This document shows positions 7,971 through 50,598 of a DNA stretch of 53,636 nucleotides, piece by piece. The notes below the pieces were generated by a model. The model was given only the letters and a program-made list of their open reading frames with translations. It ran no database searches and had not been told where the DNA came from. The position numbers and the translations under genes are program-made. The stretch lies in the IMG/VR virus record IMGVR_UViG_3300009181_000097, positions 1 through 53,636 of that record; one strand, given 5' to 3'. Numbering within the stretch: the stretch's first letter is position 1; each line of letters starts with the position of its first letter. This DNA is from a virus.

Positions 7971-9566
7971 ATGACCGAGGGTTTCAAGGCACTCATATTT
8001 GATGATGAGGCACGAGAGGGTCTGAGACGCGGGGTCGATTCCCTCGCTCAGGCTGTTAGGGTCACCATGGGACCCTCAGGTCAGAACGTGATAATTGAGA
8101 TACCGGGCGCACCACCGGTCGTCACGAAGGATGGAGTCTCCGTCGCCCGTGCGATCGATTTCCGGGATCGTAACATGAATCTCGGTGCTCAGATCGTCAA
8201 GGAGGCTGCAAATCGCACCTGCGATGCTGCTGGTGACGGAACGACGACAGCCACCGTGCTGACCCACGCGATTTTCAACGGTGGGCTTAGGGTGCTTTCG
8301 GGTGATCATAGCAGCCCCGAGGTACGCGCGGGCATGTCGTGGGCAGTTGGTTCCGTTATCGATGAGCTTCGCTCGATGTCGAAACCTGTCTCCTCGGATG
8401 AGGAGATCATCCAGGTTGGAACGATCTCAGCCAATGGAGAACGTGAGATCGGAGAGCTTCTCTCGCGAGCGATGAGAGCTGTCGGTCGCGATGGCACGAT
8501 CACTGTTGAGGAGGCAAAGGGTTTCAGCACAAGTCTTCACGTTGTCGAGGGCGCTGAGCTCGATCGTGGGTACCTCTCTCCCTACTTCGTGACAGACAGT
8601 GAGAAGATGGTCTCCTCACTTGAGTCACCATACGTGCTCCTAACTAACAATAGGATCACGGCTCTGAAGGAGATCCTCCCACTTCTCGAGAAGATTCATA
8701 ATGCCCAGAAGCCCGTCCTAATCGTCGCTGATGATATCGAGGGCGAGGCGATGCAGGGTCTTGTCGTTAATCGAACAAAGGGTATCCTGCAGGTTTGTGC
8801 CATAAAGGGTCCAGAGTTCGGTGAGAACCGTCTCCACGCTCTTCAGGATCTCGCGGCGCTGCTGGGGACGCGAGTCATTGTTGGAGAGTCAGAGCTAGCC
8901 AAGGTCACGATCCAGGATCTGGGCCGTTGCAAGCGCGCGATTGTCGGTCGATACAGGACGATCCTGATCGATGCAGCCGGCAAGAAAGAGGAGATCGAGG
9001 ATCGCTCGAAGGAGATTAGATCCCAGATCGATGATAACTCACTCGATCAGCAGGAGCGTGAGGTCCTACGTCGTCGACTTGCACGGCTCTCTGGCGGTGT
9101 CGCTGTCCTGAGGGTCGGCGGTGCAACTGAACCGGAGCTGAAGGAACGCAGGGATCGTGTTGATGACGCTCTACATGCCACGAAAGCTGCCGTCGAGGAG
9201 GGAATTCTCCCGGGCGGTGGAACTGCTCTTGTCCGTGCCGCAGCCAAGGTTCGCCGCCGACTCACGAAGAATCGCAGCGATTCATTCAAACAGGGCGCTG
9301 AGGTCATCTTTCAATCATGCTGCGCCCCTCTCCGTCAGATTGTCTTGAACGCTGGACGCAATCCCGAGCTTGTCCTCTCGAAGGTTGAACGTCTCCGCGA
9401 TAACATGGGATACGATGCTGCCACGGAGCGCTACGTTGATACTCTCGAGTCCGGGATCGTTGATCCTCTGAAGGTGGTTCGCTCCGCTCTAGAGAACGCG
9501 CACTCCGCTGCGAGCATGTTGCTTTCTGTGGGTTGCACGATCACAGATGACTCTCCTGCGGAATAG
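7971..9566 (+). CDS. groL: GroEL-type chaperonin (Hsp60)
   Basis: 531 residues, near full length for group I chaperonins. Equatorial ATP-site motifs are intact: TMGPSGQNV (~32-40), VTKDGVSVA with Asp54, and GDGTTTATVL with Asp89. The later VDDALHATKAAVEEGILPGGGTAL block carries the Asp equivalent to E. coli D398 that triggers hydrolysis. The apical domain is present, and the C-terminal GGM repeats of bacterial GroEL are absent. It folds proteins in an ATP-driven ring, here probably capsid or other phage proteins. No GroES-like gene is seen, so it may use the host co-chaperonin or an unrecognised partner. Confidence 0.96.
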   Translation: MTEGFKALIFDDEAREGLRRGVDSLAQAVRVTMGPSGQNVIIEIPGAPPVVTKDGVSVARAIDFRDRNMNLGAQIVKEAANRTCDAAGDGTTTATVLTHAIFNGGLRVLSGDHSSPEVRAGMSWAVGSVIDELRSMSKPVSSDEEIIQVGTISANGEREIGELLSRAMRAVGRDGTITVEEAKGFSTSLHVVEGAELDRGYLSPYFVTDSEKMVSSLESPYVLLTNNRITALKEILPLLEKIHNAQKPVLIVADDIEGEAMQGLVVNRTKGILQVCAIKGPEFGENRLHALQDLAALLGTRVIVGESELAKVTIQDLGRCKRAIVGRYRTILIDAAGKKEEIEDRSKEIRSQIDDNSLDQQEREVLRRRLARLSGGVAVLRVGGATEPELKERRDRVDDALHATKAAVEEGILPGGGTALVRAAAKVRRRLTKNRSDSFKQGAEVIFQSCCAPLRQIVLNAGRNPELVLSKVERLRDNMGYDAATERYVDTLESGIVDPLKVVRSALENAHSAASMLLSVGCTITDDSPAE

Positions 9567-10283: not shown

Positions 10284-11069
10284 ATGCCGGACATGATGCA
10301 GTCATTCTTCAAGGAAGTTGGTCGCCACAAGCTTCTCGATCGTGAGGGTGAGGTTGAGCTCGCTCAGCAGATGGAGAGCAAGGACGAGGCAGTTCGGGCT
10401 GCGGCCCGAAATCGCATGGTTCAGTCGAACATTCGACTGGCGATCTCGATCGCGAAGAAGTACCAGAACCGTGGTTGTGACTTCGAGGATCTCATCCAGG
10501 AGTCGACTCTCGGTCTCATGAAGGCGGTCGATCGCTTCGATTGGCGTCGAGGCTTCAAGTTCTCGACCTACGCGACGTGGTGGATCCGCCAGGCGGTCAT
10601 GCGGCATATCACTCTCCAGTCCTCTTCCATCCGTCTCCCGGCGGGCGCGAATAACCTCGTGTGGCGTGCCCGTCGGGTTACGGAGGAGTACAATCGACAG
10701 TTCGGTGTGCAGCCGACCGTGGAGGAGCTCGCCGACCTCCTGGGCGTGGGTTCCGGGTCTCTGGACATTCTTCTCCAGACTTCGAAGTACACTCTCTCGA
10801 TCGATGCTCCCGGAATGGCAGGCGATGATGGCGACGGTCCCACTCTCGGCGAGATGATCCCGGGAACCGGCGCCGATGAGATCAATGACAACATCGACCG
10901 AGAGAAGATCGCAGCAGCGATCCGTCGCGGACTCTCGAAGCTCACGGCTCGTGAGGAGAAGATCCTTCGACTCCGCTTCGGGATCACCGAAAGCTCCACC
11001 GATCATGTCAATTTCCCCATCACCCATGAAGAGCTTCACGCTCTTACCATCAGCTCGGAGATCAAGTAA
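10284..11069 (+). CDS. Phage sigma-70-family factor lacking region 4.2
   Basis: 261 residues. Region 1.2 (~5-32) and region 2 (~45-112) are very RpoD-like, with the aromatic melting residues and STYATWWIRQA helix of region 2.4. In that helix the residue equivalent to E. coli T440 is Met. Region 3 follows (~120-165), but its usual extended -10 contacts (H455/E458 equivalents) read Gly and Asn. Region 4.1 is present (LTAREEKILRLRFGI, ~220-234), yet the region 4.2 helix-turn-helix is replaced by a short unrelated tail. It should bind host RNA polymerase core and redirect it. The next gene may supply the missing HTH. Family certain; promoter specificity inferred. Confidence 0.92.
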   Translation: MPDMMQSFFKEVGRHKLLDREGEVELAQQMESKDEAVRAAARNRMVQSNIRLAISIAKKYQNRGCDFEDLIQESTLGLMKAVDRFDWRRGFKFSTYATWWIRQAVMRHITLQSSSIRLPAGANNLVWRARRVTEEYNRQFGVQPTVEELADLLGVGSGSLDILLQTSKYTLSIDAPGMAGDDGDGPTLGEMIPGTGADEINDNIDREKIAAAIRRGLSKLTAREEKILRLRFGITESSTDHVNFPITHEELHALTISSEIK

Positions 11070-48177: not shown

Positions 48178-48927
48178 ATGTATGGCAGGTTCTCAAATTT
48201 TGCAGGACCCATCTCAACCCGCCCGTTCTCGAGCGGAAGTGTCATCGTGTCAACGGGGCTCATCCTCAACTACGACATCGGTAATGCGTCCTCCTATCCG
48301 GGATCCGGCGCGACTGTCACGGATCTTCAAGCCAACAGCAACGCCACCCTCTTCAACACCCCGACATACGCGTCCGGCTACCTCACGTTCAACGGAACCA
48401 ACCAGTACCTCACGACCAACACGAGCCTCAACTCGAAGCTGTCTCCTGTGAACACGTCAACGGTGATCTCCATATTCACCTGGGTCTATCCCATGGACAA
48501 CGGAGTTATTCTCCAGGAGATGGGCCAGACGACCCCAAATTCTGGCTGGCATGATTCGCAGATCGAGATGGTCACCGGAACAATGAAGTTCTCTGTCTGG
48601 AGCAACCAGCCGGGATTTTCATCGACGATATCGACCCCGCTGAGTGCCTGGTACTACGCAGGTTTCACGTTTGATGGATCGGTCCTGCAAGGCTATGTCA
48701 ACGGTGCGCTTGCCGTTACATCCGCCACCATAACTCGTTCGACTCCCTACAACGATGGTGGCAACCTGCCTCTACACTACGCCATCGCCCACGCAGATGG
48801 AACAAACTTAGGCGACGGAACTTTCTCCAACATGAGACTTGGAGCCCTCCAGGTCTACAACACAGCTCTCTCGGCAGCGCAGGTCTCAACTAACTTCCAG
48901 GCTGATCGCAGCAGGTATGGAGTCTAA
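48178..48927 (+). CDS. Lectin-fold (LamG/ConA-like) adhesin
   Basis: 249 residues. N-terminal tag MYGRFSNFAGPIS shared with the next gene. Then a beta-jelly-roll: LILNYDIGNASSYPGSGATVTDLQ, YLTFNGTNQYLTT, ISIFTWVYPMDNGVILQEMG, WYYAGFTFDGSVLQGYVNGA, and LQVYNTALSAAQVSTNF, the classic LamG/concanavalin A-like pattern. Probably binds sugar on the host surface. Joined by TAATG to the PA14 gene. Confidence 0.85.
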   Translation: MYGRFSNFAGPISTRPFSSGSVIVSTGLILNYDIGNASSYPGSGATVTDLQANSNATLFNTPTYASGYLTFNGTNQYLTTNTSLNSKLSPVNTSTVISIFTWVYPMDNGVILQEMGQTTPNSGWHDSQIEMVTGTMKFSVWSNQPGFSSTISTPLSAWYYAGFTFDGSVLQGYVNGALAVTSATITRSTPYNDGGNLPLHYAIAHADGTNLGDGTFSNMRLGALQVYNTALSAAQVSTNFQADRSRYGV

Positions 48928-49466
48928 TGTACGGAAGAATTTCAAATTTTGCAGGACCGCTCTCCTCATTTCCAGCGCCAACAATCGTCTACTCCGCAGG
49001 TCTGTTTCGGACGACCTACTCGGGCTACTTCGCTGACGTTGTGTCTTTCTTTGCCACAGCCACCGCGACTGCCACGCTTGTCCAGACAACGGTCATCGAA
49101 GAGCCAAACACCGATGATGGCTCAAACTTCAGCATGCAGTGGCTCGGATATTTCCGGCCCACGACAACTGAGACCTACACGTTCTTCCTGAGTTCTGACG
49201 ATGCCTCTTACCTGTGGATAGGAAGCAACGCGCTCTCTGGTTTCACCACAGCTAATGCGACCATCAACAACGGTGGTGCCCACGGTCCAGTTGAGGTCTC
49301 AGGGACTGCCGCCCTCACAGCCGGCGTCTATTATCCTATTCGAATTCAGTATGGTGAACAGGGCGGCGGGGATGTCCTTACGTTCAACCACTCGACTGCG
49401 ACAATCACCAAGACCACAAACGTGACAGGAAAGGTCTTCTACAACCCAGCAACCAATGGATTCTAA
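48927..49466 (+). CDS. PA14-domain adhesin
   Basis: 179 residues. Tag MYGRISNFAGPLS, then FRTTYSGYFADVV, GYFRPTTTETYTFFLSSDDASYLWIG, and LTAGVYYPIRIQYGEQGGGDVLTFNHS, the PA14/GLEYA beta-sandwich with the DD ligand motif typical of carbohydrate binding. Shares its N-terminal tag with the lectin protein, probably a common attachment point on the fibre. Confidence 0.85.
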   Translation: MYGRISNFAGPLSSFPAPTIVYSAGLFRTTYSGYFADVVSFFATATATATLVQTTVIEEPNTDDGSNFSMQWLGYFRPTTTETYTFFLSSDDASYLWIGSNALSGFTTANATINNGGAHGPVEVSGTAALTAGVYYPIRIQYGEQGGGDVLTFNHSTATITKTTNVTGKVFYNPATNGF

Positions 49467-49667
49467 ATGATCAAAGAACTTCTAAAAGACGAAGCGGGCC
49501 AGTCCACCGTCGAGTACATGCTCCTCATCAGCGTCATCGTCATCGCCATCGTCGCGGCGGCGTACGTGTTCATCGAGCCCTTCAAGCAGGGTGTGCAGGA
49601 CCTCGGTAACGATGTGAAAAAGATCCTGAGCGATGGTAAGATTGGAAGAGTTGGTACAACAAGATAA
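49467..49667 (+). CDS. Flp/Tad-type IVb prepilin-like protein
   Basis: 66 residues. The motif G11 | Q12-S-T-V-E16-Y17 followed by a hydrophobic helix (MLLISVIVIAIVAAAYVF) matches the G/xxxxEY prepilin-peptidase site of Flp pilins of Tad pili, including Glu at +5 and Tyr at +6. A short charged tail follows. Starts directly after the PA14 adhesin stop. Expected to be inserted in the inner membrane and perhaps processed by a host TadV/FppA-like peptidase. Unusual in a phage; could assemble with or poison host pili, or act in the virion. Confidence 0.85.
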   Translation: MIKELLKDEAGQSTVEYMLLISVIVIAIVAAAYVFIEPFKQGVQDLGNDVKKILSDGKIGRVGTTR

Positions 49668-49684: not shown

Positions 49685-49921
49685 ATGCTTTTACTTCTAC
49701 TGGTCAATCTGGCGTTTGCGAGCGATGAGTCTGAGGACCGTAAGGTCGTCTACAAGCAGAAGACCGAGATCGACTTCGAGGACCTTGAGATCGAGGGTAT
49801 CCTCCAGAAGCCGCAATCTGCGCTCGTTCTCGAGCGTAAGAAGGCGAGCTTCAATCCCCTCGTGAAGCTCCGGACCGACTGGAATGATGCCATCGAAGAG
49901 TCAACGGATGAGGTCAAGTGA
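49685..49921 (+). CDS. Exported protein, gliding/surface-protein-like
   Basis: 78 residues after AAGGAG. Signal peptide MLLLLLVNLAFA-S, then DRKVVYKQKTEIDFEDLEIEGILQKPQSALVLERKKASFNPLVKLRTDW. I recall this 'VVYKxKTxIDF...KP...LxRxKxxFxxLxxLRxD' layout from small surface or gliding-motility-associated proteins of myxobacteria and relatives; not verified. With the prepilin it may act on the host envelope. Confidence 0.65.
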   Translation: MLLLLLVNLAFASDESEDRKVVYKQKTEIDFEDLEIEGILQKPQSALVLERKKASFNPLVKLRTDWNDAIEESTDEVK

Positions 49922-50598
49922 GCTCCTCCCTTCTCCGAGAGACGATCAAGCGCTTGATAAGGGAGAGTCCATCCGAGATCTCAGCAATCTACTGCGATAT
50001 GGATGGTGTCCTTGTCGACTTCGAGTCGGGAGCCGTCGATCTCGTCGCCCAGATTCTCGACGGTTCCGCCGATCCGATCTGGACCGAGAGCTCGAAGTCG
50101 ATGGCGAAGAACATCGAGAGGGTGAGGGCTGACATGGGAGATGACTGGCGTCCTCAGAGCGGCCACGATCTCGATGCAAAGGGCGCCAGGCAGCTCATGA
50201 TGTCCGCGATCGCCTCGGCTCCTGGAAAGTTTTTTGGGAGCCTTGCTCCACTCGAGGACGGCGTCGGAGAGCTCTGGCCGTTCCTCAACAGCTTAGGTGT
50301 TCCCGTTCACATACTCTCGGCACCCGTGCGGGGTCGTGAAGGTTCGGGCCCGACAGCTGAGGAGGGGAAACGTCGCTGGGTGCAGGAGCATCTTGACCCT
50401 CAGCCAGAGTCGATCGTCATCGTCGACGCGAAGGACAAGCAAAACTGGGCTGTTCGTGACGGTGGTGTTAACCTTCTCGTTGACGATAAGGGATCCACGA
50501 TCGATTCCTGGAATGCCCGAGGGGGCATCGGCATCTTACACATCCCTCACGATAGCTCACGATCAATCAACGAGATCTCCCAAATACTCAGCCTGTGA
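49918..50598 (+). CDS. HAD-family phosphatase with N-terminal targeting-like helix
   Basis: 226 residues, GTG start. N-terminal SSLLRETIKRLIRESPSE is the recurring basic amphipathic helix. Then AIYCDMDGVLVDFESG with Asp27/Asp29 (HAD motif I), VHILSAP (motif II), KRRWVQEHL (motif III Lys) and VIVDAKDKQNW (motif IV). Similar to 5'(3')-deoxyribonucleotidases. The helix on an enzyme hints at packaging into the virion or another assembly. Confidence 0.85.
   Translation: MSSSLLRETIKRLIRESPSEISAIYCDMDGVLVDFESGAVDLVAQILDGSADPIWTESSKSMAKNIERVRADMGDDWRPQSGHDLDAKGARQLMMSAIASAPGKFFGSLAPLEDGVGELWPFLNSLGVPVHILSAPVRGREGSGPTAEEGKRRWVQEHLDPQPESIVIVDAKDKQNWAVRDGGVNLLVDDKGSTIDSWNARGGIGILHIPHDSSRSINEISQILSL

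Follow-up and report, generated by a model that had tools for sequence, protein, structure and literature searches.

Cyanophages carry psbA, a host-derived auxiliary gene whose product maintains photosystem II, and the Tip and Aqs1 proteins of Pseudomonas phages inhibit type IV pili by binding to the assembly motors. The Flp/Tad pilins (type IVb, also T4c), such as PilA of Caulobacter and KilP of M. xanthus, are small, all-helical prepilins with a G/xxxxEY processing site and a hydrophobic N-terminal helix. In the Caulobacter Tad pilus, the Glu+5 and Tyr+6 residues form core hydrogen bonds (PMC11067988). The Kil system of M. xanthus is a Tad pilus with which prey is killed on contact, and this killing requires its major pilin, KilP (MXAN_5121, 97 aa; PMC12075869). 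The same organism produces GltF, or CglF (MXAN_4868), a secreted protein of 89 aa that belongs to the Agl/Glt machine, is found at focal adhesions and is needed for gliding, a movement wholly lost in glt mutants; a 2011 survey found GltF only in Myxococcales and Bdellovibrionales (PMC3169522).

Here, we analyzed the IMG/VR record of a large freshwater phage, 53,636 bases long (hereafter, the window, meaning the whole of this stretch of DNA) in which a gene for a Tad/Flp-type prepilin is followed by a gene for a GltF/CglF homologue. The phage pilin shares with the Flp/Tad pilins the features listed above; unlike them, it is encoded by a phage without the assembly genes and falls under the Flp1_like and Class_IIIsignal profile cut-offs (see below), and at 66 aa it is shorter than KilP (PMC12075869). 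Like GltF of M. xanthus, the phage GltF matches the CglF family over nearly its full length and has a bacterial homologue within a glt cluster; unlike it, the protein is phage-borne and carries phage-specific motifs (see also below). The arrangement recalls psbA in that, from a host machine built of many proteins, a phage holds just one subunit, which is under strong purifying selection; here, however, no metabolic function would be involved, the machines being a pilus and a gliding apparatus. As with Tip and Aqs1, a phage protein would be aimed at a pilus of the host, but it is a pilin and not a motor binder.

The prepilin gene in the window

The sequence-only reading had proposed that the window codes for a Flp-type prepilin with a G/xxxxEY site, and this was borne out. 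The ORF runs from an ATG at 49467 to a TAA stop codon ending at 49667 (Table 1); it begins MIKELLKDEAG/QSTVEYMLLISVIVIAIVAAAYVFIEPFKQ..., and its whole translation is MIKELLKDEAGQSTVEYMLLISVIVIAIVAAAYVFIEPFKQGVQDLGNDVKKILSDGKIGRVGTTR. The leader has 11 residues and a terminal Gly, and the mature pilin opens with QSTVEY, which places Glu at +5 and Tyr at +6. Exactly one ORF in the window has the G....EY motif near its N-terminus followed by a hydrophobic stretch; among controls, 60 base-shuffled windows yielded no such ORF, and when each of 426 ORFs had its residues shuffled 200 times, the combination arose once. The structure model (mean pLDDT 81) is fully alpha-helical, with helices at residues 2-33 and 36-55 and no beta domain.

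Table 1. Coordinates of the prepilin gene, its predicted parts and the neighbouring genes in the window, with the evidence for each
Feature	Position	Strand	Evidence and remarks
Tail-fibre-like protein, 532 aa	46575..48173	+	phrog_9017 tail fibre, E 0.0056
Lectin-like (Laminin_G_3) virion protein	48178..48927	+	PF13385, E 9.4e-10; phrog_8510 virion structural protein, E 1.8e-22
GLEYA/PA14-domain adhesin	48927..49466	+	PF10528, E 2.7e-22; PF07691, E 5.9e-16; stop abuts pilin start
Tad/Flp-type prepilin	49467..49667	+	66 aa; ORF and motif, viral and bacterial homologues, dN/dS, all-helical model
Predicted class III leader MIKELLKDEAG	49467..49499	+	Cut after Gly11; sequence; leader variable among phages
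Predicted mature pilin, 55 aa	49500..49664	+	Glu+5, Tyr+6; sequence and model helices
GltF/CglF homologue, 78 aa, N-terminal signal-like segment	49685..49921	+	NF033764, E 3.7e-15, 55.7 bits
HAD/5'-nucleotidase-like gene	49918..50598	+	PF00702, E 2e-4; phrog_2643, E 8.6e-17; 4-nt overlap with CglF end

Searches of Pfam, PHROGs and NCBIfam gave nothing above cut-off for the pilin. Two Pfam families matched below threshold, PF16982 (Flp1_like; 17.5 bits, cut-off 33.5) and PF04021 (Class_IIIsignal; 17.1 bits, cut-off 23.7), and PF04964 did not match. A bacterial homologue of the pilin is likewise under the cut-offs of the Flp profiles. Thus, the curated Flp profiles miss this clade of pilins, and the cut-off was not taken as a defining feature. 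The PDB yielded no worthwhile sequence match and no fold match for the model, which consists of two helices only.

The PA14/GLEYA gene, which itself comes after the Laminin_G_3 lectin gene, ends in a TAA that is directly followed by the ATG of the pilin gene. The proposal that the whole set is read from one late promoter is unproven: no T4-type late promoter (TATAAATA) is present in the window, and the sequences within the operon that resemble sigma-70 promoters fit the consensus weakly. The window also codes for an RNA polymerase sigma factor (10284-11069; phrog_351, E 2e-55), which may explain the absence of T4-type late promoters.

Relatives of the pilin in viruses and in bacteria

A homology search upheld the relationship to pilins. 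The gene was found in 16 other IMG/VR contigs, with 85-97% identity (17 pilin contigs with the window), and neither the pilin nor GltF had a match among 50,697 GenBank phages. Full-length homologues with 64-82% identity were found in 18 bacterial metagenome-assembled genomes (MAGs) in a scan of genome collections. The homology to these 16 viral contigs and 18 MAGs leaves no doubt that the ORF is real, and the product is a Flp/Tad prepilin with a predicted G/QSTVEY processing site.

Among the phage pilins, the segment from G11 to A32 is invariant, while residues of the leader vary, and across all the aligned phage and host pilins Glu+5, Tyr+6 and the Gly-ended leader do not change. Few amino-acid changes have accumulated, and the median dN/dS is 0.046, a value to be read knowing that synonymous sites are close to saturated in many pairs and that 39 of 105 were unusable. 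The GC content of the gene ranges from 0.34 to 0.56 among the phages. Judged from these alignments, the phage pilin is under strong purifying selection, with all the assembly residues kept. In a FastTree protein tree, the phage and host pilins split with a support of 0.969, and several residues are fixed in the phage proteins relative to the host pilins: I36, [ED]37, P38, [KR]40, D56, R61 and V62. However, IEPF at positions 36-39 is also present in one host MAG, so that part of these differences may reflect the donor.

The position of the pilin gene behind the adhesin genes, which the sequence-only reading had stressed, holds for the window phage and its near relatives but not elsewhere. The pilin follows the PA14/GLEYA gene in the window and in L001, L002, L004, L005 and L007, and in L003 it comes shortly after the lectin gene; in L006, L008, L009 and L015, it overlaps or abuts the CglF gene. 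Genes for HAD-like or glycosyltransferase-like proteins lie downstream of the pilin in many of the phage contigs, the HAD-like genes following it or being near it in L009, L011, L012 and L014-L016. Where CglF is not directly behind the pilin, the place can be taken by an ORF of about 500-625 aa with a similar N-terminus (L005:8232-10106, and also in L001, L003, L004, L007 and L013), and the product of the ORF in L005 has a glycosyltransferase family 2 domain.

The MAGs with pilin homologues bear titles such as Deltaproteobacteria, proteobacterium or Pseudomonadota, and many of their names point to lakes. Three of the loci (L035, L041 and L042) come from public MAGs titled Klebsiella pneumoniae which clearly belong to the same deltaproteobacterial clade and are mislabelled. 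At an E value of 1e-9, a scan of 379 genomes from the phylum of the MAGs matched the pilin in only 21, nearly all of which were MAGs already identified. In the loci that were read, the MAG pilin is an orphan chromosomal gene, with an aldehyde dehydrogenase on one side and a metallophosphoesterase on the other; KilP has the same orphan status, and the two differ in length. One MAG (G036), however, has a second copy, with 70% identity, inside a complete Tad cluster that includes a peptidase A24, a second Flp, RcpC/CpaB, a secretin and a T2SSE ATPase. It is this copy that most strongly identifies the phage protein as a Tad pilin. A search for RcpC (CpaB family) succeeded in each of 17 MAGs and one for the prepilin peptidase in each of eight, as against none of six and none of seven phage records, respectively, many of the phage records being fragments.

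The gliding-machine gene behind the pilin

The sequence-only reading had described the pilin gene as having no host-like flanks. This did not hold: only 17 nt downstream in the window begins a gene whose product resembles the adventurous gliding motility protein CglF (NCBIfam NF033764; Table 1). The profile matches along nearly the whole length but, at 55.7 bits, is below the cut-off of 90; the orthologue in the glt cluster of one MAG, with 57.3 bits, is also below it. The structure model of the phage GltF is poor (pLDDT 60). Also overlooked had been that the pilin is grouped with a gene for the gliding machine and that one bacterial clade has close homologues of both: a close GltF is present in 17 of the 18 pilin MAGs. 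In one of these loci, the gene order is two outer-membrane barrels, GltC, a TPR protein, GltE, CglF, GltG and CglE, and this layout is repeated at the two other loci that were read. The glt cluster makes it likely that the pilin MAGs belong to Myxococcota, and the sharing of both genes suggests that this clade may include the hosts of the phages.

GltF is encoded by 13 of 20 virus records tested, including ten of the 17 pilin records; two pairs among these ten look near-identical, leaving about eight that are independent. A profile scan found GltF in 63 viral contigs of IMG/VR (L123-L185) of up to 316 kb, with 41-88% identity to GltF of the window, and all eight of those tested match NF033764. 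The dN/dS of the GltF core among the phages is 0.065. In a protein tree, the phage GltFs fall mostly in clades of their own, and they carry the phage-specific motifs LERKKA and RTDWN, as against LDRKKA and RxDFN in the hosts. Thus, within the contigs surveyed, GltF is widespread in phages, and a freshwater-type subset of them has the pilin in addition.

Close bacterial homologues being known, the two genes might be taken for host contamination or for a functionless fragment of host DNA that hitch-hikes with the phage. We regard this as scarcely credible and rejected it on several grounds. The pilin occurs in 17 viral contigs with varied neighbours, a wide range of GC content and a low dN/dS, and it is separated from the host pilins in the tree. 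On none of the 63 viral contigs does GltF have a neighbour homologous to proteins of the host glt locus, and on the 316-kb contig a gene for the terminase large subunit lies near GltF.

The roles that the sequence-only reading had entertained for the pilin (a block to superinfection, jamming of the pilus, a part in the virion or in the exit path) were guesses, of which those that modify the pilus are still plausible. The place of the gene within the tail-fibre operon of the window phage is in keeping with a role in the virion or in lysis and exit, which we nevertheless consider very unlikely, as the protein has a class III leader and a membrane helix, the gene neighbourhoods differ in other phages and the partner gene codes for a gliding protein, not a structural one.

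Possible roles of the phage subunits

Our best guess, in which we place a confidence just short of even, is that the pilin and GltF are phage versions of one subunit each from two envelope machines of the host, the Tad (type IVb/c) pilus and the Agl/Glt gliding machine, and that they supplement the subunits made by the host. The phage prepilin would enter the inner membrane and be cut after Gly11 by the host prepilin peptidase, and the host Tad platform would take the mature phage pilin into host pili; since Glu+5 and Tyr+6 are invariant, assembly of the phage pilin should be feasible. GltF would be exported to the periplasm and join the Glt complex. By carrying a small, consumable or limiting subunit of each machine, the phage would allow attachment, movement or contact functions to persist after expression by the host fails, so that these functions continue, or continue on the phage's terms, much as cyanophages do for photosystem II with psbA. 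Processing, co-assembly and the direction of the effect are what we infer from the two genes and their relatives. Supplementation is favoured because the phage holds one small, intact subunit per machine and because GltF is implausible as a receptor. The direct coupling of the pilin to GltF in L006, L008, L009 and L015, and the 17 nt between the two genes in the window, also speak for it. However, the fixed differences of the phage pilins suggest an altered, and not merely supplementary, subunit, and the finding of GltF in 63 contigs, as against 17 for the pilin, means that the two need not share one purpose.

The altered residues bear on a serious rival, masking of the receptor or exclusion of superinfecting phages, although we would put it on the unlikely side. 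Here, the phage pilin would join host Tad pili and change their surface or dynamics, so that the same or rival phages fail to adsorb, and GltF would disturb the second machine. The fixed phage-specific residues lie in the middle and C-terminal part of the pilin, which is exposed in Tad pili, and in Caulobacter differences in the Tad pilin, including N43R and T51A, accompany the loss of PhiCb5 adsorption (PMC11067988). In addition, the pilin is translationally coupled to a PA14/GLEYA gene of a receptor-binding type in the window and in several relatives, and several relatives have a gene for a glycosyltransferase after it (tested in L005). Other phages, however, couple the pilin to GltF instead of to fibre genes; GltF is an envelope or periplasmic protein and an implausible receptor; and from phage to phage the exposed part of the pilin hardly changes, without the diversification of an arms race.

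That the phage holds a single subunit from each of two machines could also be read as a classic way of poisoning a polymer or a complex, which would immobilise the infected cell or stop its attacks on others, and the phage-specific shift of a proline from position 37 to 38, near the helix break, could fit with such dominant interference. Yet strong purifying selection has preserved the entire C-terminus and all the assembly residues, and neither a truncation nor the loss of Glu+5, as a poison might show, was seen; nothing in the sequences is broken. We therefore consider interference improbable.

If supplementation is the right reading, phages manipulate the machines that such hosts use for surface motility and contact, doing so through subunits that they contribute. 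This would be a counterpart of cyanophage psbA for motility and contact behaviour, and the pilin and GltF genes would be strong predictors of the host for uncultured large phages of freshwater and other environments. More broadly, and quite tentatively, we suggest that there is a widespread group of large phages which infect gliding bacteria with Tad pili, probably myxobacteria, and which carry single 'spare parts' of the host (GltF and, in freshwater, also the Tad pilin); these would keep the infected cell moving, attaching or attacking during its conversion into phage. In M. xanthus, where prey is killed through the Kil system (PMC12075869) and gliding depends on GltF (PMC3169522), a laboratory model would then be at hand for testing directly whether predators go on hunting while infected. 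We found no description of a phage-encoded Tad pilin or gliding-machine protein in the open-access literature, a scope that does not prove absence; a paper on viruses of Arctic peat does not report gliding genes in viruses.

Other genes of the window code for the large subunit of a T4-type topoisomerase II, a DNA ligase, an RNA ligase/tail-fibre attachment protein, an exonuclease and an endonuclease. The topoisomerase is nearest, with 54% identity, to those of phages of 634-642 kb (LR756502, LR745206 and LR756504), in which searches found neither the pilin nor the gliding gene. A GroEL chaperonin is encoded at 7971-9566 (phrog_5725, E 3e-148), and GroEL is also present on another of the pilin contigs (L010). 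Finally, about a dozen small ORFs of 65-90 aa, with starts resembling MKPGDLVRI or MKAGDL, lie between 32431 and 46511 and scattered elsewhere in the window, and represent a repeated family of small proteins.
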